NCBI GenBank assembly: GCA_002733495.1
Contig: NVVV01000064.1
Coordinates: 1 to 52,719 of the forward strand
Length of the DNA: 52,719 bases
Origin: Robiginitomaculum sp.
GTDB lineage: Bacteria > Pseudomonadota > Alphaproteobacteria > Caulobacterales > Maricaulaceae
Direction: 5' to 3'
In this document: piece by piece, positions 11,430 to 52,719 of the stretch
How positions within the stretch are numbered: position 1 is the stretch's first letter
Layout: each line of letters begins with the position of its first letter
Translations under genes and position numbers: made by a program
The notes under the pieces: generated by a model
Seen by the model: only the letters and a program-made list of their open reading frames with translations
What the model was told of the DNA's origin: nothing
The model's database searches: none

Positions 11430-11798
11430 TTAATTTAATGAGCGAACAGTAAAATCAATAACAAGTTCGAAGTTCTTATTGCTGTTCTGAAATTCCGTAT
11501 AACCGTTCATCGTCGAATCAATTACAGTCACGCCGCCGATATCACCAGAAAAGCCGTCTAAGGCGTCTATGATGGTTTCGCTGTGTGAATGGATGCTTCT
11601 GTAGCTGTTGCCGATTAGGTTGATTTGAATGCCAAAGGTGTAGCCCATAGGCTTGCCTTGGTTGGCATAGATTGGTAAGTCTCTAGATATAGAATTTGAT
11701 ATAACGAATGCGGGGTATGGTGTGTTTTCTGGTTTTCTGATTATGTATCCGTCTATACCTAGCAGGTTGGTTAAATATGCTAGTAGCTCTTGGTTCAT
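11430..11798 (-). CDS. Tail terminator / completion protein (DUF3168, gpU-like), 122 aa
   Basis: The helix at the N-terminus, the GYTFGIQINLIG strand, the helix SHSETIIDALDGFSG, and the final strand LVIDFTVRSLN match the layout of small tail-completion proteins. Order (HK97 gp10-like gene, this gene, tube protein) is the standard one. The ATG overlaps the stop of the preceding gene by four bases (ATGA). It probably caps the tail and joins it to the head. Confidence 0.75.
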   Translation of the reverse strand: MNQELLAYLTNLLGIDGYIIRKPENTPYPAFVISNSISRDLPIYANQGKPMGYTFGIQINLIGNSYRSIHSHSETIIDALDGFSGDIGGVTVIDSTMNGYTEFQNSNKNFELVIDFTVRSLN

Positions 11799-12376
11799 CT
11801 ACTCCCCTTAGTCGCTCTCCTCATGGTTGCAGCCCAACGCTTTTCTAATGTGCTAGCGAAAACGTCATATGCCGGTTGCGCTCCATGAAACAGAGCTTGT
11901 CTTAGGAATGGTTGTGCCTTTGCTCTGCCAATTTTTCTAAACGTTGCTTCGATAGCGCCGTTCACAATCTTGGTCCTAGGCTGCACGAATTCATCACGAC
12001 CATATTCAACGGCTGCAATGTATTGCGATGCGTAACCAGCAGAGCCAACGATACGTCTTGCGACAATACCTTTGCTTTGTAAGCGTCTGCTCATTGCGCT
12101 AGCTTCTCTAAGTCCTGATTTATCTTTAAGGGATATCGCCTTTCGATATGCTGGTTCGGTAGCCCTTATTTCAGATCTAATAGATGGTGCGCGTAACAAG
12201 GCACGTTTATATATAACGTTGTTGGCTAGTCGTAGTGAGTACCGGATATCTAAAAGGCTTCGATTAGTTTTGCTCTTGTAAGACGAACCAACAGCATCCC
12301 ACATCGATTGCATTTCTTTATAAATTTCAGGTAAGCTACGTTTGCCCTTGTAAACCAAGTCGCTGCTGATTTGCAA
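11795..12376 (-). CDS. HK97 gp10-like head-tail / tail component, 193 aa
   Basis: Basic, helical protein with the recognisable plan of the HK97 gp10 family: an N-terminal helix, an arginine-rich middle (RIVGSAGYASQYIAAVEYGRDEF), then a PFLRQALF motif and a basic C-terminal helix. It takes part in joining or completing the tail. Its start lies inside the head-closure gene by 41 bp, so translation is likely coupled. Confidence 0.8.
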   Translation of the reverse strand: MQISSDLVYKGKRSLPEIYKEMQSMWDAVGSSYKSKTNRSLLDIRYSLRLANNVIYKRALLRAPSIRSEIRATEPAYRKAISLKDKSGLREASAMSRRLQSKGIVARRIVGSAGYASQYIAAVEYGRDEFVQPRTKIVNGAIEATFRKIGRAKAQPFLRQALFHGAQPAYDVFASTLEKRWAATMRRATKGSR

Positions 12377-12692: not shown

Positions 12693-13273
12693 TATCCGAA
12701 TCTCCTAAGCTTGTATTTATCCAATAAATACTTATGGGACATAGACAAGTTCGAGACAGTTACACCCTGACCTACAACGCTATCCTCTCTTGATTCGTAC
12801 ATCGTCCCAATTAGCAACAGAATGGCTTGCTTGATTGGTGTCGGCACTTCATCATCTGCCCAGCCAGTCATAAACGTGACTTGCCATCTAAACGGATATT
12901 CGTTACGGATTGCGTCACGGCCATCCTTGGTTAGATTTAATGAACCTGTAACGTTGTTGAAATTGTATAGCGTAGGGTCTAGAACAAACCTTGATCCGTC
13001 ATCGTCACGTTGGTTTTCGTATGTGACTTCTGAAATTGAGTTAGCCGCGCCTTGGGGCAACTTCATGTCAACTCGATCTGTTTGGATTAATATTTCACTC
13101 TCTAATATGTGACGATTTAGATATTTTTCGGCAACATCTTTAGCAACAACTATTAGTGTCTGGATGTAGTCGTTATCGTAATCGTCTTGTATTCGCAAGT
13201 GATGCCTAGCCTCCTCAAGGGAAACTAGGTAATCCAAATCAGAAGCAGTTGACAATGTAATGTAATCAAACAT
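12692..13273 (-). CDS. Head-tail connector (HK97 gp6-like), 193 aa
   Basis: The N-terminal segment SLEEARHHLRI and the downstream helix DDYDNDYIQTLIVVAKDVAEKYLNR are hallmarks of gp6-like connector proteins that form a ring under the portal. The last third (PTPIKQAILLLIGTMYESRE) is also typical. The ATG at 13273 follows GAGGT by 7 bases; the TTG two codons upstream is a weaker start. It lies directly after the capsid gene. Confidence 0.85.
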   Translation of the reverse strand: MFDYITLSTASDLDYLVSLEEARHHLRIQDDYDNDYIQTLIVVAKDVAEKYLNRHILESEILIQTDRVDMKLPQGAANSISEVTYENQRDDDGSRFVLDPTLYNFNNVTGSLNLTKDGRDAIRNEYPFRWQVTFMTGWADDEVPTPIKQAILLLIGTMYESREDSVVGQGVTVSNLSMSHKYLLDKYKLRRFG

Positions 13274-13291
13274 TGTCAACCTCTTTGAGTG

Positions 13292-14530
13292 CTATGCAGT
13301 TGGTATGTCAGTTGCTTGGATAATTACCTTGATTGCATCGTGATTAAACACGCACTCGCCTAAACGCCATTCATGGTAAAGAATGGTTGTACCTTTAACT
13401 GTGTACGGGTCTTGGATCATGTTGTCTGAACCAGAAACAGGAAGGATACGGAATGCTTGGCTAAGATTACCGAAGATAATCGGAGTTGCGTTCTTTTCAC
13501 CAGCATCAGGCATGTAGTCTTCAATCATGATAGGGAAACCTAGAAGCGTCATACCAAATCCAGCCGTCCAGTTTGACATTAGTAACGGATTGCCATCAGC
13601 GTCTTTGATTTTCATCAGTTCCGCTTGTGTGCGGCGATTCATTACCCAGCTTGAACCCTGCAACCAACGACTGTTAAGGGTCGTAACGCAGTCGATGAAA
13701 AAGTCTAAGATATCGCTTGAGTCAGTACCGAATGAGCCGTTTGTTCCGGTAGGAATTACTTGGTAAATATCTGGTAAGCGATCTGCTGCTCCGCCGTCTG
13801 TTAAGCCATCTTCTTTGAGTGCTTCTGCGAACGTATTAGATAAATCAATACGGCTGTTTAGGATGCCGCGCATATCACCTGCAGTTGTACCGTCACCGAA
13901 TAGAATTTGTTGAGCAACGTAGCGCATTTCTTCATCTGCAAGCAAACGGCGTAAATCAGAAACGATGTTTATATGCGGGTCCAAAGCAGCTTCATTCGAA
14001 TATTGTGGGCTTGAGTAAACTTTAATAAACTCACCAACTACTTCTTTGTATTCTTGTGTGCCTGTTTTACTTGGTGAATCTGCACCAACAACGTTTTCAG
14101 CACCGGCTGCTACTGTTGGGTAGCTTTGTAGAACAGGTTGACGGTATCGCGTTGAGCCAACAGATAACGAACCAACCATACCTGTAATAGAAGTAGGTTC
14201 TCGCATTTGCTCGATTACCATGCGGCCCATTTCTTCATCAATTAACTGATAACCATTTTCAGGGCCGTTGGCAGGGTCGCCGTTACCTACGTGCAAGATT
14301 TTCTGCTGGTTAGCTGAGAATCGTTCGAAGTCCTTTGTGCCATCTTCAAACCATGAACGCAAAGCATCGTCCATCATCTTTTCTTTCTTTTCTTTAGTCA
14401 TTTCAACTTTAGGCTGTGCGTTTAAAGCGCGAGCTTTTTCTGTTGCAAGTTCAGTTTCAACGTGGCCGATTTTTGTTTCTAATGATTTGATGGTCGTGTC
14501 CATACCTTCAAGAATTTCTTTGTATTCCAT
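13292..14530 (-). CDS. Major capsid protein (HK97 fold), 412 aa
   Basis: The N-terminal ~90 residues form a coiled coil (KSLETKIGHVETELATEKA), the delta domain used as an internal scaffold and removed by the protease encoded upstream. The following region begins with an ENGYQLIDEEMGR-type motif and keeps classic HK97 elements, including WVMNRRTQAELMKIKD and GFPIMIEDYMP, where related capsids have a 'G.PV.....MP' motif. An AAGGAAAA ribosome site precedes the ATG. The 108-bp gap to the protease gene holds a 9-bp imperfect hairpin but no clear terminator. Operon order portal-protease-capsid is as in HK97. Confidence 0.93.
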   Translation of the reverse strand: MEYKEILEGMDTTIKSLETKIGHVETELATEKARALNAQPKVEMTKEKKEKMMDDALRSWFEDGTKDFERFSANQQKILHVGNGDPANGPENGYQLIDEEMGRMVIEQMREPTSITGMVGSLSVGSTRYRQPVLQSYPTVAAGAENVVGADSPSKTGTQEYKEVVGEFIKVYSSPQYSNEAALDPHINIVSDLRRLLADEEMRYVAQQILFGDGTTAGDMRGILNSRIDLSNTFAEALKEDGLTDGGAADRLPDIYQVIPTGTNGSFGTDSSDILDFFIDCVTTLNSRWLQGSSWVMNRRTQAELMKIKDADGNPLLMSNWTAGFGMTLLGFPIMIEDYMPDAGEKNATPIIFGNLSQAFRILPVSGSDNMIQDPYTVKGTTILYHEWRLGECVFNHDAIKVIIQATDIPTA

Positions 14531-23677: not shown

Positions 23678-23931
23678 CGTCTAGCGATCCACCCTGTAGG
23701 CTCTTTATCGTCTGCAAAGCCATTACCTAACCATTTGCCCAACTCAAACAATGCGCGGTCTTCTGACTCGAAACAGAAGCGAGAACCATAACCAGCACCA
23801 TCTAAATCATGCAGTATGGCCGTTGTGAACATTAAGCTAGTTAAACAGCTATAAGTATCCGATTCTTCATGGTGTACGATGTGGTAATAGTGGTTCGATT
23901 CTAAGAACTCAACGAATTCGGGGTTAATCAT
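23674..23931 (-). CDS. Hypothetical protein, 85 aa
   Basis: An acidic, aromatic-rich small protein with a HisHis/Tyr-rich N-terminus and the end GKWLGNGFADDKEPTGWIARR. Overlaps its neighbours on both sides by four bases, so it is translated as part of an operon. No family recognised. Confidence 0.6.
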   Translation of the reverse strand: MINPEFVEFLESNHYYHIVHHEESDTYSCLTSLMFTTAILHDLDGAGYGSRFCFESEDRALFELGKWLGNGFADDKEPTGWIARR

Positions 23932-24251
23932 GATTCGCCCGACTGCGCATGAATGCGTTCATACTGTGGGCAAGGGAAACCAAGAGATTTAAACCAAGCT
24001 AAAATCTTTTCGTATTCATCAACTTTAAAGTAAAAGCTTTGATGATGCTGCGGGCTTACGTCTGTAATTTTGGTTATATTATGAAAAGCAACTTTAACGC
24101 TATTTACATTATTGCACACTTCAACACCAACGAACTCAGGCGACCATTGCGCGCTTACATCGTGTGAGTGAAGCATTATTAAATCACCAATAAGGCTAAA
24201 TGTTGCCTCTAGTCCGCTTTTATTTTTAATGTGGATTGCATTTACTGTCAT
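23928..24251 (-). CDS. Hypothetical protein, 107 aa
   Basis: A soluble mixed alpha/beta protein with several His and Asp residues; no membrane segment. It starts 17 bp after the zinc-ribbon gene and overlaps the next gene by four bases. No family recognised. Possibly involved in host takeover, judging only by its place in a string of small accessory genes. Confidence 0.6.
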   Translation of the reverse strand: MTVNAIHIKNKSGLEATFSLIGDLIMLHSHDVSAQWSPEFVGVEVCNNVNSVKVAFHNITKITDVSPQHHQSFYFKVDEYEKILAWFKSLGFPCPQYERIHAQSGES

Positions 24252-24268
24252 TTGATCGTTTCCTTGGT

Positions 24269-24619
24269 TTAAGCCGACATGTTAAGCAGAACAGAGCGGT
24301 ATAGCCTGCTGTGCTTAGACTCCGGCGAATTATCAACCTTTGCAGGCGTTGCCGCTAATTTAACTGCTCGCTGCTTGGCTTTATATTGTAACTGATACGC
24401 CGCTATTTTAACTGCGTTTTTAATCCGTGACCGCCTTGCGACTTCGGGATTATATTTACTTCTACCTAGAGTACCACCGGCACCGTAACGTGACTGATGA
24501 TACGCAGCGCAACACGGCTTACACTTATTCTGTAGGCCGTCTATGTTTTTAGTTGCTCTGCTGAATTCTGAATAGTCTTTGAATTCGTGACATGTATTAC
24601 ATGGTTTCTGCTCTAACAT
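24269..24619 (-). CDS. Zinc-ribbon protein, paralogue A, 116 aa
   Basis: The N-terminus has CNTCHEFKDYSEFSRATKNIDGLQNKCKPC, a four-cysteine ribbon spaced CxxC...CxxC with the DGLxxxC motif often found in front of HNH or endonuclease VII domains. No nuclease domain follows. Instead there is a basic linker and a C-terminal HSRLYRSVLLNM motif shared with the next gene. It overlaps that gene by 7 bases. Likely nucleic-acid or protein binding. Confidence 0.7.
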   Translation of the reverse strand: MLEQKPCNTCHEFKDYSEFSRATKNIDGLQNKCKPCCAAYHQSRYGAGGTLGRSKYNPEVARRSRIKNAVKIAAYQLQYKAKQRAVKLAATPAKVDNSPESKHSRLYRSVLLNMSA

Positions 24620-24948
24620 GGCATCATCATTAAAACCTTGCGGTATAGCTCACTGTGATTTAGCAACTTAACCTCATCATTTTTAAGCTTAATGTAATAC
24701 TTACATGAGTCATCGTTGATAACGTTTTTGCGTGGTGGTTTAGCTTGTTTGGCTCTGAGCTTACGTTGATACTCTTTATGGTAAGCATTACGTTTAGTAT
24801 GATCTTGAGGGTTTTTAATCCTGTTGGCCTTAGCTGAAACCTTTGAGCATTCCTTGCAATTGCTTTGCAATCCGTCTGGTCTAGTAGTGCGTTTATAAAA
24901 TTCTGTTACGTTCTTAACCAGATTACAACTGCTGCACTTCTTTTCCAT
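24613..24948 (-). CDS. Zinc-ribbon protein, paralogue B, 111 aa
   Basis: The N-terminus carries the same ribbon (CSSCNLVKNVTEFYKR, then DGLQSNCKEC) as the downstream neighbour, a very basic middle (KEYQRKLRAKQAKPPRKN), and the end HSELYRKVLMMM. The shared N- and C-terminal motifs show tandem duplication. It is the first gene after the tRNA and structured-RNA array. Function unknown; RNA binding would fit the charge and position but is speculation. Confidence 0.7.
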   Translation of the reverse strand: MEKKCSSCNLVKNVTEFYKRTTRPDGLQSNCKECSKVSAKANRIKNPQDHTKRNAYHKEYQRKLRAKQAKPPRKNVINDDSCKYYIKLKNDEVKLLNHSELYRKVLMMMPC

Positions 24949-24970
24949 GTGACAACCTTAATTCGTTTAG

Positions 24971-25039
24971 CAGGTACTAATAGCTCGACCTAAAAAATAT
25001 AATAAAAAGCGCCAATAAGCTGAACGCTATTAGCACCTG
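24971..25039 (-). ncRNA. Structured element sr8 of the tRNA-like array
   Basis: Ends are a 14-bp stem, CAGGTGCTAATAGC pairing with GCTATTAGTACCTG on the minus strand, with one G.U pair that would be A.C on the plus strand. It is 69 nt long, with an AT-rich interior. Longest closing stem in the array. No GCCA end. Confidence 0.5.
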
Positions 25040-25060
25040 ATAAACAAACTTCGGGATACC

Positions 25061-25124
25061 TAGCAGACAACAACTAATAAATCATTTACTGAATGAATCT
25101 ATCCGTCCATGTCATCGTCTGCTA
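25061..25124 (-). ncRNA. Structured element sr7 of the tRNA-like array
   Basis: Perfect 8-bp closing stem TAGCAGAC/GTCTGCTA, 64 nt long, on the 3' side of the CAU tRNA. The interior holds a CATTCAGTAAATG hairpin. No GCCA end. Confidence 0.45.
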
Positions 25125-25134
25125 AATATTTTGA

Positions 25135-25208
25135 TGGGCCTCCCTAGAATTGAACTAGGAGTCTCAACGATTATGAGTCGTGCGATTTAACCGTTTATCC
25201 AGAGGCCC
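25135..25208 (-). tRNA. tRNA with CAU anticodon (Met or Ile2)
   Basis: The minus strand shows a 7-bp acceptor stem GGGCCTC/GAGGCCC with discriminator A, a short D arm, the anticodon arm ACGA-CTCATAA-TCGT (anticodon CAU) and a T arm CCTAG-TTCAATT-CTAGG. No CCA is encoded. Phage CAU tRNAs are often tRNA-Ile2, whose wobble base is modified to lysidine to read AUA; Met cannot be excluded by eye. Confidence 0.88.
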
Positions 25209-25213
25209 AAACT

Positions 25214-25268
25214 TGGCGCACTCCCCTCGCGTTTTAATACGACAATCTTGGTGGATTTTGGGGAATGC
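25214..25268 (-). ncRNA. Structured element sr6 of the tRNA-like array
   Basis: A 9-bp closing stem GCATTCCCC/GGGGAGTGC (one U.G pair on the minus strand) is followed directly by GCCA. Total 55 nt, 5 bp from the CAU tRNA. Shorter than any normal tRNA and lacking a TTC-type T loop. Confidence 0.5.
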
Positions 25269-25274
25269 ATAATT

Positions 25275-25342
25275 TGGCGCACCAACTGTAATCGTGCTGT
25301 TCAGCCCCCATTTTAAAAAAAGGCTAACAAACCAGTCGGTGC
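25275..25342 (-). ncRNA. Structured element sr5 of the tRNA-like array
   Basis: A 10-bp closing stem GCACCGACTG/CAGTTGGTGC with one G.U pair, then GCCA. The interior forms a second stem GTTAGCC/GGCTGAAC with one bulge. 68 nt long, with a 6-bp spacer to sr6. Confidence 0.52.
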
Positions 25343-25354
25343 ATTATTTAAGAT

Positions 25355-25415
25355 AGAAGACAGGACATAGAGAATAATACTTGAGACACCATAGCCCTAT
25401 ATAAACCCGTCTTCT
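25355..25415 (-). ncRNA. Structured element sr4 of the tRNA-like array
   Basis: A 10-bp closing stem AGAAGACGGG/CCTGTCTTCT with one G.U pair on the minus strand, and an inner stem ATAGGG/CTCTAT. 61 nt. No GCCA end. Confidence 0.5.
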
Positions 25416-25420
25416 AAATT

Positions 25421-25490
25421 TGGCGGGACAGCTTCACGCAGATAAACTAACAAGGCAAGAAACGATCAAATAACACCTTGAGACTGTCCC
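25421..25490 (-). ncRNA. Structured element sr3 of the tRNA-like array
   Basis: A perfect 7-bp closing stem GGGACAG/CTGTCCC, tRNA-like in length and position, followed by GCCA. The interior has CAAGG/CCTTG pairing and a TTTGATCG stretch similar to sr2. 70 nt long. Confidence 0.55.
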
Positions 25491-25498
25491 ATTATAGG

Positions 25499-25548
25499 TG
25501 GCGGGATAGTTGCCCAGAGGAATGATCAAAAACCCCTGTACCCCGCCA
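25499..25548 (-). ncRNA. Structured element sr2 of the tRNA-like array
   Basis: A 10-bp closing stem TGGCGGGGTA/TATCCCGCCA (one G.U pair on the minus strand) that includes the GCCA end, and an inner stem CAGGGG/CCTCTG with a TTTTTGATCATT loop. 50 nt. Confidence 0.5.
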
Positions 25549-25565
25549 TAATTCGTTACTTTTAA

Positions 25566-25625
25566 AGTGTCACTGCACGTCATAAATACAGAATCGGAAA
25601 CATTCACATAAAAAACAATGACACT
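25566..25625 (-). ncRNA. Structured element sr1 of the tRNA-like array
   Basis: A 10-bp closing stem AGTGTCATTG/CAGTGACACT with one U.G pair on the minus strand, and an inner GAAT/ATTC hairpin with a 7-base loop. 60 nt, 12 bp from the other tRNA. No GCCA end. Confidence 0.5.
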
Positions 25626-25637
25626 ATAAAAATATTG

Positions 25638-25712
25638 AGCCGGTGATTTGACTCGAACAAATGACCTAACAGGTTTTTAGCCTGTTCGCTCTACCAACTG
25701 AGCTACACCGAC
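25638..25712 (-). tRNA. Unusual tRNA, apparent AAA anticodon, extended anticodon stem
   Basis: The minus strand gives acceptor GTCGGTG/CACCGGC (one T.G), a standard D arm GCTC-AGTTGGTA-GAGC and a T arm ATTTG-TTCGAGT-CAAAT. The anticodon arm is AACAGG-CTAAAAA-CCTGTT: six pairs and a 7-base loop, or five pairs and a 9-base loop. With U33 fixed the anticodon reads AAA (Phe), which is rare because bacteria use GAA. No CCA is encoded. It may be a decoy, a frameshift or suppressor tRNA, or one decaying from a normal gene. Confidence 0.75.
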
Positions 25713-25755
25713 AATATGGATTTATCTTAATTACATTGGGCCTTATAGTCAATTA

Positions 25756-42732: not shown

Positions 42733-45552
42733 CTAACTAAAAGTAGTTACCACCCCCGTTTTAACTGAGTTCGTAAAGTACGCAGCATAAGCACCACCAA
42801 CGGCGGGAACGTTACCGGATACGATAGAACCCCTGTTTGTGTTGCGGTGTGTCACTTGTGGCTGTTGGTCTATCAATACATTAGCTGAACCGTCAGGTCG
42901 GCGTATTATTAAAATAACGGGCAACTCGCTCTCATACTCCACAATGCAGTAAGGGCGCAAATTTCGGTTAGCAGGTGGAACAATAACAAGCGGACGTATT
43001 CCGTATGAGTGAATGATCTTATTTTGCAGAAAGGCATCATCATCAAGAATAACAACGCCGTTATCAGTGAAGCCGATTAACTGAAATAAATTAATATGCT
43101 TCACTGTTCCGACTGTTGTATTTTCTCCGCACGTTGTTCTGAGTGCCGCGTCATAACAGTATTTAGGGTCTGTTGTTCTAAACCCTGTAGTTCCTGACAA
43201 TTCAGGGGAATAAGCGCGGTTTATATAAACCAAAAAAGAACCTGTGCGCGGATCGAAACCCATTGCTAAATCGTTAAACGTGCTACCGAAAACGGGAATG
43301 TTAACCATTTTATCGCCGTCATCAGAGCGTAAAAACAGATCAATACCGGTATCCGGTGCTGTGGCCGTAATTGATTCTATTACAATACCCTGCCAGATTG
43401 GATCTAACCAAACCCAGTTCGTGTTGTCAGTTCCAACAGCCAAGAAATCAGCGCCAACAGTATTTTCAATTATAGTGCCTGTCGAATCATTGATAGCTAA
43501 GTCAAAAACGTGAGTGCCTAAACCATTAGTAAACTTAGCATTTGCGACAATACCATCTAAGTAAGTACCACGATTAGCAGAATAACCTATAGTATTAAAA
43601 CCCCATGAACCGCCTGTATGATTAGGAACCGTATTATCATAACGTGTGATAATACCAGTGTCTAAGTCAGTTTTTATTATATTGGTATGCTCAGTGCCAA
43701 TCGTACCCCGTTGCCATTCAAGCTTAATATTCCAGTTACCACTAACTAAACCTAAAAGACATTCTCCACCGCCTGCATATCCGCCAGTGTTAAACATTTC
43801 AAGATTTCCGAGTGTGGTTATTCCTATGTATGTCTGTGATCCTGCGTTAGTCGAACCGAAGATTGGTTTAGTGTCTGCGTCCCTAACGTAATTCAATAAA
43901 TCGAACTCTAAATAGTTTGTACCATCTTGAGGGTTAAAAGCTGATTGTGCTTGAATTAGCTGGTTTATACCGTCTAGCTGTAGATAAGAGCGAATGCTGT
44001 CATCCCATCTTCGATCCCACGTAATCGCGGTAAAGCCATTACTACCGCCGGCGGGGGCAAGGGTTTCAGAACGGTATAAAATACGCCATAGTCCGCCCCA
44101 GTCAGCAAAGTCTTTATTATCGTCTTCTGTAAAATCGGCCGCTACTGTAGGTGTTTGAGTGGTGGAATTATCAACCATGACGAAAGCAGGACCAAGGCCA
44201 ATGTCATCGTCAATATGTTCTATTACAGAACCTTCACCAAGGTCAACATAAGAATTCATATCAAAGTTTTGAACTCGAATATTACGGCCAGAATTCAAAA
44301 AATCTTCGACAAATAAATCTGTTTTGGTTGTAAAATCTGTCATCGTACCCATCGACCAATGGCTAAGGCCAAGGAATAATTCCAGCAAAGAACCGGTAAA
44401 TGACTGTCTAACGCTAAACCATCCTGCTGTATTTTGGATTGTCCAGTTACCAGCATAAGCACCAGTTGAAGCACAAGTATTGCCCGTCCCCTCATCAATA
44501 TTAAGATATTGGTCTGTTCCTGCTGTTGTACCGGTATTATGAATATCCCAAATAAAACCTTGATAACGAATAGTTCCGGATCTTGAATTTGCATAACCAA
44601 CTTGATCAATTCGCATATCTAAACCACTAATAGCGCCGGCGATTGTAGCCATAACAACACCATTTATTAATATGTTTGTTTCAGTTGCTTTACGCTGTAA
44701 TTGCCATGTTATTTCTTTGTCAAAATTAATAGATGATTTATCGAAAAGTGGGAATGATCCAATATAAGCCCCGTTACGAAATGCCAACTCAACTTGTAAA
44801 TCGTTTCCAACTTCACGAAAACGAATAGCGGTGTCATCATCAGAGTTTGAGCTTGAACCTGTACTATTTCCCATCCACGCCCGCCAGCTACCATCTACTA
44901 TCATTCTGGCAGTTTTCCACTCTATGTAAGACGAATCATTACCGCCACGCCAGTTCCAATCTCCGCCTGTTGATTTATTTAACTCATTATCAACACCATT
45001 AAAATAGTGCTTAGTTAGGCCGTGTGGTGTTGAAACGGTATGTACCTGAAATGGTCCATCATTGAATGTTTTATTTAGATCTGGATGCTCAAAATAATCT
45101 CCGTTATTCATATCATCTCGTCTAAAAAACAAGCGCACATCAGCATCGGGATCACCTTCAAAACCACGCTCTAAACGGATTGTTACTTGTTCGCCATTTA
45201 TGGCTGCGTGTGGCCCCCAAGTTCTTATATCACCACGTATAGACAGTGAGATAGAATTATCAGCATTAACACGAACAAAATTAAGATGATCTGTCGAGTC
45301 TATAAAGTACTGCTGTAAGTTTGGTGTCCAGTCACGAACAGTAAATTCAAACGGGTTTATGGCTACGCTTGGTGCGCCTAAACCCTCAAAAGTTCCGTAT
45401 GACGGCACTAAACCCCAGTTGTAAGAGTAGGGGTCAAATATATTTTCCTGTCTAAAGCCTTGTGCTGTTAAGTCTTGAGAACCATAAGCGGATAGCTCTT
45501 TTTTATCTGCGTTTTCTTTAATTATGCGGTGCTGAGAAGTGAGTAAAGTCAT
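42733..45552 (-). CDS. Large tail appendage / putative receptor-binding protein, 939 aa
   Basis: The last gene of the structural operon. Rich in Gly, Asn, Thr, Asp and Trp, with repeated lectin-like strands (YLQLDGINQLIQAQSAFN; YLEFDLLNYV; GGSWGFNTIGYS), typical of concanavalin/LamG-type carbohydrate-binding modules in phage fibres. No signal peptide or collagen repeat. A strong AGGAGGG ribosome site precedes the ATG. It probably binds host surface sugars. Assignment by composition and place. Confidence 0.68.
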   Translation of the reverse strand: MTLLTSQHRIIKENADKKELSAYGSQDLTAQGFRQENIFDPYSYNWGLVPSYGTFEGLGAPSVAINPFEFTVRDWTPNLQQYFIDSTDHLNFVRVNADNSISLSIRGDIRTWGPHAAINGEQVTIRLERGFEGDPDADVRLFFRRDDMNNGDYFEHPDLNKTFNDGPFQVHTVSTPHGLTKHYFNGVDNELNKSTGGDWNWRGGNDSSYIEWKTARMIVDGSWRAWMGNSTGSSSNSDDDTAIRFREVGNDLQVELAFRNGAYIGSFPLFDKSSINFDKEITWQLQRKATETNILINGVVMATIAGAISGLDMRIDQVGYANSRSGTIRYQGFIWDIHNTGTTAGTDQYLNIDEGTGNTCASTGAYAGNWTIQNTAGWFSVRQSFTGSLLELFLGLSHWSMGTMTDFTTKTDLFVEDFLNSGRNIRVQNFDMNSYVDLGEGSVIEHIDDDIGLGPAFVMVDNSTTQTPTVAADFTEDDNKDFADWGGLWRILYRSETLAPAGGSNGFTAITWDRRWDDSIRSYLQLDGINQLIQAQSAFNPQDGTNYLEFDLLNYVRDADTKPIFGSTNAGSQTYIGITTLGNLEMFNTGGYAGGGECLLGLVSGNWNIKLEWQRGTIGTEHTNIIKTDLDTGIITRYDNTVPNHTGGSWGFNTIGYSANRGTYLDGIVANAKFTNGLGTHVFDLAINDSTGTIIENTVGADFLAVGTDNTNWVWLDPIWQGIVIESITATAPDTGIDLFLRSDDGDKMVNIPVFGSTFNDLAMGFDPRTGSFLVYINRAYSPELSGTTGFRTTDPKYCYDAALRTTCGENTTVGTVKHINLFQLIGFTDNGVVILDDDAFLQNKIIHSYGIRPLVIVPPANRNLRPYCIVEYESELPVILIIRRPDGSANVLIDQQPQVTHRNTNRGSIVSGNVPAVGGAYAAYFTNSVKTGVVTTFS

Positions 45553-49731: not shown

Positions 49732-52719
49732 TTACTGATGTGCAGTAAGCGTTGGTGTTAGAGAGGTAGCAGATAAAACAAGAACTACAGTTGATGATGT
49801 AGGTATAATTGTAAACACTGGTACATCATCATTTGTACTCGGGCCATAACCCAAACGGAAGCCGTAAGTATTAGATTGATAAGTCGCACCTGAACTAAGT
49901 TTACAAGTGTAATAACCGTTGCCCTGTACTACTACATACATTGGAACACCTATCTTAACGCCTGTGATATTCCAAGTGCCATTACCAGAATGGGTACTAA
50001 CAACAGATACAGCAGCAGCAGATGACTCACCTGCACTCTCACCAATACCATCAACAATCTTCCAACCAACAACCGAATCAATATAACTTAGCGTGATAAC
50101 TGTATTAGCATTGGTTAAAACTAGATCGTCATTTGATCCGTGAATAAATTGAGCTGATGTGATTTTTATTGATTTTACTAATGAAGCAGAGCCATTGTAG
50201 TCGCCAATTGATACCCAATCGCCAGCAATGCCAGTTGGTAATGTTGCAGTTAATGAAGCGGTTGAAACATCAAACAAAATACCTTCTTCACTTGATAGCG
50301 TGTAGTTAGCAGTTTTCTTAATGTAGGTAGGTATTCCAGCACCGCCACCGCCAATAGATCCCCATCGACTGCCGTCATGACCTTCGAATCCATTTGTAGG
50401 ATGGTATCTAAATTGTGCTTGTACGCCTGATGAGCTTGTATCAACTGGAACAGTTAGCTTTGTTATTGCCGAAACTTCACCAATAAGTTTGCCGCTGAAT
50501 GTTGGCGCGTATAACGTACCTGTCATCGTGTCGCCAGTTGCATTAACGAAACGCGTATTACTCTCTGACTCAGTGTAATAACGGCCATCATGGTTATGAC
50601 TATCATCTAAAATAGTTGTATTTACAGTGAACGTTTCGTTACCTGATCCATCAACGGACTGTGTAACTGTACCTGTAGCGTCACCTGTAAGCGTAACCGT
50701 GAAATTACGAGGCGTTGTCCATGTATCAGCAGTTGTCGCGCGTGTGGCTGTTGTAGCGTTTCCTGTAAGATTACCTGTAACGTTACCCGTTAACGCTCCA
50801 ATGAACGTTGGCGCTGTTAACGTGCCCGCTGAACCGTTGTATGTCATACCTGTGTGACTATAAATAACCCCGTTTACATTTACTGTAATAGGATACGTGC
50901 CACTAAAAGTTGTATTTATAGACTTCAAATTAGTGGCCGTTGTTGCATTGCCAGTTAAGTCGCCCTCGAACATGGTTGATTTTAAATTACCTGTTGACGG
51001 GTTGAACGTAAGCTTACTAACTGTGTCTCTAAGCTTGCTATTGTTATCATGCCAAACAATAGGATAGTTAGCATTGTCTGCTGTATGGTCGATTACAGAA
51101 ACGCTTGACGCTATACCAGTTAGATCACCCTCGAACGTGGTTGTTTTTAATGTTCCTGTTGAAGCCTGAAATGTTAGTTTTGAAGCTGAGTGATACAGCG
51201 ATTTATCTGTTGCTATCCATGTAAGAGGGTAGTGTGTTGGCGTTGCTGTATTCTCATTTACTGTAACTTTATCTGCTGTACCGGTTAGATCACCAATGAA
51301 CGTTGGCGCTGTTACACTTGTTGCTGCTATATCAGTCGCGGTTAATTTGGCAACTCTTATACCAGCGAATCCACCTGAATCATCACTAAAAAAATCAATT
51401 CTTGGATCTCCTATGCTAGTGTTATGGTTCATTCTTATAGTATCAGCGCCAGAATGACTCCAATAAATCCAAGAGCCACTATTCATGTAGATATCGCTAT
51501 TGGAATTAAAAACAAGATCACCCGTCATCGTATCGCCAGCTTTACTTACTTTTAACGCGTCCTGTGACGTTACATAATCATATCGAGTTAAACTATCACC
51601 TGATGTTTGCTGTGCTACAACAGAGTAAGGATTGTTAAGGTAAACCTTGCCATTTACTTCAAATCTTGATTCAACTACAGATGAATTATAACCGCGAGGT
51701 CTTATATATACGTGACCAGTTAAAGCGTCAGTTCCAGCACCCATTACCAAATTTCCGGTTGTTTGATTCCGGAAATTTATTCTTGGTGCTCCTCCTGCTG
51801 AACCGCCTATTTCCCAGTCTGTTACGTTGCCGTATAACGAACCGGTCATCGTATCGCCAGATTTTTTAACTCTGTTACCAGTTAGATAATTAAGCGCCTG
51901 TTGTACGTTATTCTCAGCGTTATCAAGGTAGGGAGTATATGCAATCTGTGTTGCCGTATAATCTCCGTTTTCTGCTGTTACCCTGCCTTGTCGATCAAAT
52001 ACAGATATCACTGAATCGCCAAGCTCTAAATGTACGAACGTTCCCATCGAGGCTGAACCTGTCCACTGCAATTGATCTTGGTCGAAAACTATGTAATCAA
52101 TTGGCGAACCAGATATCCCACCCATTCTAACCGTTACACCTGTGGCTTTATCTGCTTCGTCTAACAGCACAACATATGTATAACCTGATGGTTCTACACC
52201 TGTTGGTGCAACGCCTTGTGATATGGTTGCGTTGCTTGGATCGCCTGAAACAGTTAGCGTTTGGTTTGGTGCGCCTGATGGTTTTGGATTTACTGAGCCT
52301 CTAAGCTCCGCACCTCTACCTAGGCCAGCAAATAAATTATCTCGCGTTATTCTCTTCTTATCACCATTAGGTAATTCAATCAATAAAACATCTGATCCGC
52401 TTGCAACAGTCGCTTCAACTGTGCTACCAATATCAACTTTTAAATCAGTACCAGCAGCAAGGCCACTGTTAAGCGGTGTGTTAATGCCTACGTTATCTGA
52501 CGCAATACTCAAGCCACGATCAACGTTTACAGTTAGTGTTCTGTTAGATGCTAAATTACCACCGCCAGATAAACCATTACCTGTCGTTATAGTTCGTGAC
52601 GTTCTTACGACTGTGTTATCGACAGCTAAGTTAACGTTAGCACCTAACAGATTATTATCTTGTTCTAACCCATCGCCAGCGTTTACTTGTCGCGTAGTTC
52701 TTACAACAGTGTTATCAAC
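49732..52719 (-). CDS. Long tail fibre protein, main part (start lies at 465 beyond the join)
   Basis: The reading frame comes from base 1 and runs to 49732. Bases 52621-52719 duplicate 1-99. It holds the third VVRT repeat, then GLSGGGNLASNRTLTV (a motif common in marine phage fibres), GDTMTG repeats at three places, three TFIGDLTG/TFEGDLTG-type repeats, and an NHDGRYYTESESN collar motif. The C-terminal ~250 residues are the likely receptor tip. It forms trimers that bind the host. Confidence 0.87.
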   Translation of the reverse strand, partial: VDNTVVRTTRQVNAGDGLEQDNNLLGANVNLAVDNTVVRTSRTITTGNGLSGGGNLASNRTLTVNVDRGLSIASDNVGINTPLNSGLAAGTDLKVDIGSTVEATVASGSDVLLIELPNGDKKRITRDNLFAGLGRGAELRGSVNPKPSGAPNQTLTVSGDPSNATISQGVAPTGVEPSGYTYVVLLDEADKATGVTVRMGGISGSPIDYIVFDQDQLQWTGSASMGTFVHLELGDSVISVFDRQGRVTAENGDYTATQIAYTPYLDNAENNVQQALNYLTGNRVKKSGDTMTGSLYGNVTDWEIGGSAGGAPRINFRNQTTGNLVMGAGTDALTGHVYIRPRGYNSSVVESRFEVNGKVYLNNPYSVVAQQTSGDSLTRYDYVTSQDALKVSKAGDTMTGDLVFNSNSDIYMNSGSWIYWSHSGADTIRMNHNTSIGDPRIDFFSDDSGGFAGIRVAKLTATDIAATSVTAPTFIGDLTGTADKVTVNENTATPTHYPLTWIATDKSLYHSASKLTFQASTGTLKTTTFEGDLTGIASSVSVIDHTADNANYPIVWHDNNSKLRDTVSKLTFNPSTGNLKSTMFEGDLTGNATTATNLKSINTTFSGTYPITVNVNGVIYSHTGMTYNGSAGTLTAPTFIGALTGNVTGNLTGNATTATRATTADTWTTPRNFTVTLTGDATGTVTQSVDGSGNETFTVNTTILDDSHNHDGRYYTESESNTRFVNATGDTMTGTLYAPTFSGKLIGEVSAITKLTVPVDTSSSGVQAQFRYHPTNGFEGHDGSRWGSIGGGGAGIPTYIKKTANYTLSSEEGILFDVSTASLTATLPTGIAGDWVSIGDYNGSASLVKSIKITSAQFIHGSNDDLVLTNANTVITLSYIDSVVGWKIVDGIGESAGESSAAAVSVVSTHSGNGTWNITGVKIGVPMYVVVQGNGYYTCKLSSGATYQSNTYGFRLGYGPSTNDDVPVFTIIPTSSTVVLVLSATSLTPTLTAHQ
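52621..52719. repeat. Terminal overlap, copy 2 (circular contig end)
   Basis: Identical to bases 1-99; see the first entry. Confidence 0.9.

Follow-up and report, generated by a model that had tools for sequence, protein, structure and literature searches.

On the minus strand of the window, by which we mean the whole 52,719-nucleotide stretch analysed, eight closed-stem units and two tRNA genes lie in an array at positions 24966-25712, in the neighbourhood of two HNH-type endonuclease-like genes and a 107-aa gene that had no match in PHROGs, Pfam or PADLOC at E 0.001 (Table 1). All eight units and both tRNAs of a preliminary description of this DNA were recovered, and the first of the tRNAs (tRNA1) has an abnormal anticodon arm. 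The window is an entire contig of a bacterial bin and holds a 99-base exact repeat at 1-99 and 52621-52719, so the contig is probably a closed circle (phage or phage-plasmid). Among its genes are those for a terminase, a portal, a serine recombinase, a ParA-like protein and a large replication protein remotely similar to that of N15-type phages, a gene content that suggests a temperate phage, perhaps a phage-plasmid. As G+C is 0.41 in the window versus 0.39-0.55 in nine incidentally fetched stretches of the bin, the bin organism may not be the phage host.

Table 1 Features of the array and its surroundings in the window
Feature	Position	Strand	Description
Sigma-70-like promoter TTGACT-17-TAAGAT	25724..25752	-	upstream of the array; 9/12 consensus
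tRNA1, called tRNA-Phe(AAA)	25637..25712	-	ARAGORN call; 19-nt anticodon arm
U1	25559..25632	-	long closed stem, no CCA; loop GAATGTTTCC conserved in 3/3 phages
U2	25499..25547	-	closed stem and GCCA, inner hairpin; 5' end ambiguous; different sequence but same shape in L001
U3	25421..25490	-	8-bp stem and GCCA, inner hairpin; TGATCGTTTC conserved in 3/3 phages
U3 antisense stretch	25457..25475	-	complementarity to a start region
U4	25352..25417	-	11-bp stem, no CCA; missing in L001
U5	25275..25342	-	10-bp stem and GCCA; missing in L001
U6	25214..25268	-	9-bp stem and GCCA, two inner hairpins; identical in L002, almost so in L001
CAU-anticodon tRNA (tRNA-Met)	25133..25209	-	tRNA call
U7	25056..25129	-	closed stem, no CCA; stem sequences differ among three phages
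U8	24966..25044	-	14-bp core stem; upstream of HNH gene
HNH-type endonuclease-like gene	24613..24948	-	phrog_30859; weaker endonuclease VII-like matches; no Pfam match
Second HNH-type endonuclease-like gene	24269..24619	-	protein-family match
Proposed U3 target	24246..24264	-	Shine-Dalgarno, spacer and ATG of gene 23928-24251
107-aa gene, proposed U3 target	23928..24251	-	gene call

Relatives were sought by scanning viral contigs with the replication protein (as sequence and alignment), a helicase alignment, a neighbour-protein alignment and four array or target DNA patterns, together with one genome-contig scan and four possibly overlapping genome draws: 199 relatives for array DNA and, for the replication protein, 398 genomes of the order, 394 of the order of G434 and 385 of the class. 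Across these viral-contig, genome-contig and genome-draw searches only two array-bearing relatives were found, here called L001 and L002. The end repeat is 123 bases long in L001, and none longer than 10 exists in L002, which comes from Moritella sp. PE36 and is the same element as L036. One of the viral-contig scans also gave L051, a 6-kb fragment ending in the helicase, and three remote helicases. In phage records the array region had no DNA match and the HNH protein one weak match. Several candidates were discarded: the 29 array-DNA matches outside the window among the 199 relatives all fell within tRNA parts of the query, 10 of the 12 loci of another viral-contig scan held only 16-23 bases of pattern match, and loci L087-L089 lacked a tRNA and any reading frame of at least 40 codons behind the match.

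The stem cores of the eight units measure 8-14 bp, and seven of the eight contain one non-Watson-Crick pair, each of which is G.U on the minus strand; the exception is U7, whose 8-bp core is Watson-Crick throughout. The preliminary description had counted six such stems, a number that needs raising by one, and had read every imperfect pair as G.U on the minus strand, which holds throughout. Its conclusion that RNA structure of the minus strand is kept is backed by these pairs and by co-variation in the two relatives. The comparison with shuffled sequence that it had proposed gave nine non-overlapping closed units on the array strand of the window, counting the acceptor stem of tRNA-Met besides the eight units; 200 shuffles averaged 1.27 and never exceeded 4. 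The corresponding counts are 6 in L001 and 8 in L002, with shuffle means of 1.00 and 1.37 and maxima of 4 and 5 (200 shuffles each), the figures for the window and L001 taking in the tRNA-Met stem. The opposite strand, which shares perfect stems, holds 4 closed units in the window, 3 in L001 and 6 in L002. A strict scan requiring a stem of at least 8 bp with both a 5' G and RCCA found three matches in the window array, four in that of L001 (one being the inner part of U1) and three in that of L002, against 0.007, 0.003 and 0.005 per shuffle, respectively (400 shuffles each). Extended to the three genomes in full, both strands included, the same scan gave 12 matches. Ten are array-strand matches within the arrays; the remaining two lie on the other strand of L001, and one of these mirrors L001's U1.

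The array occupies the same genomic place in the window, L001 and L002, with eight units in the window and in L002 and six in L001. A tRNA-Ser of L001 takes the position that U4 and U5 occupy in the other two phages, and the spacer AATTAT after the GCCA of this tRNA is the spacer found ahead of U6 in those two. Judged from this arrangement, units and tRNA genes replace one another. Pairing is also kept through change: two-sided changes with pairing retained number 4, 4, 6, 0, 1, 0, 9 and 2 for U1 to U8, a total of 26 pairwise cases against 2, 2, 4 and 4 in four slid controls, although the structures were predicted from the very sequences compared, which favours the unslid count. Co-variation here is a matter of counting in three genomes rather than of a tree-based test. 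Broken cells in the unslid comparison (1, 5, 0, 0, 0, 0, 8 and 1 for U1 to U8) are high only in U2 and U7, two units with sequences that hardly align. The stem of U7 consists of 11 pairs in the window, 11 in L001 and 15 in L002, in unrelated sequences, and that of the window includes two G.U pairs. Loop sequences are conserved in U1, U3 and U6. Together, the compensatory changes and conserved loops suggest selection on the RNAs themselves. The finding withstood both computable refutation tests of the preliminary description, namely want of conservation or co-variation in relatives and equal abundance of such stems in shuffled sequence.

The units do not resemble tRNAs in family searches. As had been remarked earlier, no window unit has a normal T loop: the motif TTCRANY occurs in none of the eight, and in one of the 22 unit copies of the three phages (U3 of L001). 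At the curated thresholds of Rfam the whole window gave no match, tRNAs included. At E up to 5, 7 matches were listed for the window array, 9 for that of L002 and 19 for that of L001, of which only tRNAs (2, 2 and 3, respectively) reached the score of their own family; the others, such as snoRNA or microRNA models over U1, U7 and U8, fell far below threshold. Neither the tRNA model RF00005 (E up to 5, three arrays) nor ARAGORN matched any unit, and the suggestion that the units are degenerate tRNAs finds no support here. A related idea, that they are tRNA-gene remnants or spacers serving mainly as processing signals, would fit their place in a tRNA array and the interchange of units with a tRNA gene. 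It is nevertheless very unlikely, as the units go unmatched by the tRNA model and their compensatory changes and conserved loops speak for selection on the RNAs.

The GCCA reported after the stems of U2, U3, U5 and U6 is present in each, the end of U2 being ambiguous. Among the 22 unit copies, 11 have a closed stem followed by GCCA after a 5' G, and two of these (U2 of the window and of L002) are ambiguous in that their GCC can alternatively pair with the 5' GGC. The nine clear copies, with G after U and with GCCA, are U3, U5 and U6 of the window and L002 and U2, U3 and U6 of L001; U at N-1 says little, since it also precedes three non-unit scan matches and the sequence is AT-rich. Passages of PMC11143913 give RCCA pairing and U-1 among the features of RNase P substrates and list phage M3 and C4 RNAs as such substrates. 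By this measure the CCA units carry end sequences of the RNase P type (5' G and RCCA). Transcription could start at the promoter-like sequence upstream of the array. In that 1-kb region two promoter-like sites were found against a shuffled mean of 2.6, which is what shuffles give; by eye, TTGACG-17-TACTAT and TTGACT-17-TAAGAT are seen upstream of tRNA1 in L001 and L002, respectively.

The anticodon arm of tRNA1, read by eye, has 19 nt in the window, 25 in L001 and 26 in L002 instead of the normal 17, so tRNA1 may not decode. ARAGORN called it Phe(AAA) in the window and Stop(TTA) in L001 and missed it in L002, and the Rfam tRNA model scored it at 54.9 bits in the window, 49.8 in L001 and 40.7 in L002. 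Its anticodon arms had no notable complementary partner in a complementarity search of the phage. CCA-ended stems adjoin this abnormal tRNA in all three phages, and the units could be decoys or substitutes, CCA-ended mimics of acceptor stems that occupy host enzymes of the defence or toxin type directed at tRNA acceptor ends or anticodon arms. Parts of PMC12851939 describe cutting of a CCA-tailed truncated tRNA or hairpin by Cas12a3, bound 62-fold more weakly than full tRNA, and anticodon-loop changes in phage tRNAs have been proposed as nuclease evasion in sections of PMC10264068. Even so, half of the unit copies (11/22) end without CCA, and a generic end decoy would not need the conserved loops of U1, U3 and U6; we regard decoys as unlikely.

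A base-pairing role is suggested by U3. Its antisense stretch and the proposed target are complementary over 19 contiguous positions (17 Watson-Crick and 2 G.U, score 41), which is the best ungapped complementarity of any window unit to the phage itself. In L002, 18 complementary positions (score 37) occur at the matching leader; the gene behind that leader is a different one, corresponding to the gene that follows 23928-24251 in the window. When 71 start regions of the window and 59 of L002 were considered, shuffled U3 sequences reached these scores in 1/1500 and 2/1500 cases and any of eight shuffled units in 8/1500 and 14/1500, respectively, fractions that are optimistic because start regions were singled out only once the match was known to lie in one. 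Genome-wide and unrestricted, 19 of 150 shuffled unit sets reach the U3 score, which is not significant. Judged by gapped duplex energy at start regions the match is weak, being equalled by 8/400 shuffles in the window, 23/400 in L002 and 120/400 in L001. In L001, whose end repeat marks it as circular, a U3 target of this sort is missing, though its U3 keeps TGATCGTTTC; and as the window and L002 are homologous, the matches in these two are not independent. The complementarity of U3 is thus borne out in part. A second, weaker start-region match of U3 in L002 scores 30.

Across the remaining seven units no start-region energy, whether in the window or in L002, was rarer than 7/100 shuffles, the energy of U5 being reached by 7/100 in the window and 8/100 in L002. 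Two ungapped matches of U5 were set aside: in L002 (score 35) the called start was internal to the replication protein, and in the window a match of score 31 just upstream of the 939-aa gene 42733-45552 was at the level of shuffled sets (mean maximum 29.5). Host partners of U2, U3 and U6 complements were searched for in G000 and Moritella PE36, and none was clear; outside the phage itself the host matches had two mismatches, in one case a single mismatch. Among 14 host contexts, one lies over a frame start, two inside frames and eleven at none. The U2-loop complement in L081 of Moritella sp. PE36 falls, with two mismatches, over the start of a 503-codon frame, which may be chance and is a lead at most.

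Known phage RNAs offer several points of comparison. The T5 stable RNAs resemble the array in being non-tRNA RNAs among tRNAs and HNH genes; in the T5 stretch fetched, eight further RNAs are annotated as stable or tRNA-like. Seven of these (RNAI, RNAIII, RNA1, RNA2, RNA2H, RNA3 and RNAIV, with RNAX left out) were folded and all have predicted terminal closing stems that differ in strength. RNAI ends in a 5-bp stem and GCCA and RNA3 in a 6-bp stem and TACCA, as in the CCA units, whereas lengths are 103-172 nt except for RNA3 (73 nt). In an antisense test of the seven there was no significant start-region complementarity apart from self matches: two match only their own opposite strand, and for the other five 49-129 of 200 shuffles do as well. 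T4 species C and D (rnaC, rnaD), to which the preliminary description had likened the units, are likewise small stable RNAs in a tRNA array with a homing endonuclease gene (segB), but they are only two, of 139 and 119 nt, and rnaC has a TTCGAAT T-arm-like hairpin that window units lack. The likeness to T4 was of the right kind, and that to T5 is closer. As non-tRNA RNAs with closed stems that sit in a tRNA array of a phage, close to genes for homing-type endonucleases, the units belong by analogy to the same kind as the T4 and T5 RNAs. In the titles and opening abstract lines of the open-licence matches listed, no such array was described, which is a weak statement.

The array may work like C4 RNA, which has a closing stem, a 5' end made by RNase P and a b' loop partly over ribosome-binding sites, according to excerpts from PMC5320573. 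C4 (P1/P7, with copies in P4 and N15) is a single RNA, in contrast to the many units among tRNAs here. The C4 model RF01695 matched none of the three arrays at E up to 5 and recognised the positive controls from P4 (74.9 bits) and N15 (78.8 bits); the units are not members of that family. M3 of phage phi80 is another phage small RNA and RNase P substrate, as parts of PMC11143913 indicate. Unlike the units, it is annotated as an oop homologue, has 60 nt and ends in a terminator-like hairpin.

Alternatively, the units might be stable RNAs like T4 C/D and those of T5, protein-binding or otherwise structural and free of any function in base pairing. The setting of tRNAs, stable RNAs and HNH genes is that of the T5 array, yet most T4 and T5 RNAs are longer and the U3 complementarity in two phages would be left unexplained; we consider this somewhat unlikely. 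The reading we tentatively favour, at slightly less than an even chance, is that the region encodes a set of RNA cassettes that tRNA enzymes mature and of which one or more act like the C4 antisense RNA of P1 and P4. The region would then be a single transcription unit, read from the promoter upstream of tRNA1 into a polycistronic tRNA-like precursor. Host tRNA enzymes would mature this precursor, with RNase P cutting 5' of the opening G in CCA units and 3' trimming leaving the encoded GCCA as the end. The long-stem units without CCA (U1, U4, U7 and U8) would probably, at a guess, be released by RNase III-type or other endonucleases. The products would be short, presumably stable RNAs with tRNA-like ends and individual loops acting by base pairing. 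U3 would mask the Shine-Dalgarno sequence and start codon of the first gene in the downstream, same-strand run of small genes and so lower its translation, and the remaining units may pair with further targets, be they host RNAs or those of rival phages. The interpretation given in the preliminary description is supported in part.

Perhaps this could be taken further, to a multi-cassette antisense array of a temperate phage-plasmid in which host tRNA machinery cuts and caps interchangeable small RNAs, each with a loop directed at a gene start of the phage, the host or a rival phage. Cassettes would be gained and lost like tRNA genes, perhaps by way of the adjoining HNH enzymes, and this strategy would survive as relics in the stable RNAs of T4 and T5; the scheme is doubtful. 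The non-tRNA RNAs of phage tRNA arrays are annotated as small stable RNAs in T4 and as stable RNAs with unknown functions in T5. The present array offers a compact set of many short units with tRNA-like ends and a structure kept in three phages, and one concrete candidate partner for one unit provides a handle on this long-unexplained class of viral RNA.

U8 perhaps belongs to the leader of the HNH gene rather than to the array. Two pairings are open to its 5' arm in the window, one with the 3' arm and one with a middle segment that is followed by T-rich sequence, and the latter, terminator-like part is predicted at -14.8 kcal/mol, with weaker values in L002 (-7.5) and L001 (-4.4). Upstream of the HNH gene, U8 may alternate between the long stem and this hairpin. 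The three phages also vary around the array. In L002 the promoter-like site and tRNA1 are separated by an additional HNH-type gene (11715-12071). In L001 the second HNH gene is followed by a gene with a pilin-type N-methylation signal (13184-13696), at the position that holds the U3 target leader in the window and L002. A tRNA with the CAU anticodon stands at the same place in each of the three phages on differing tRNA bodies, as if it had been exchanged but was needed.
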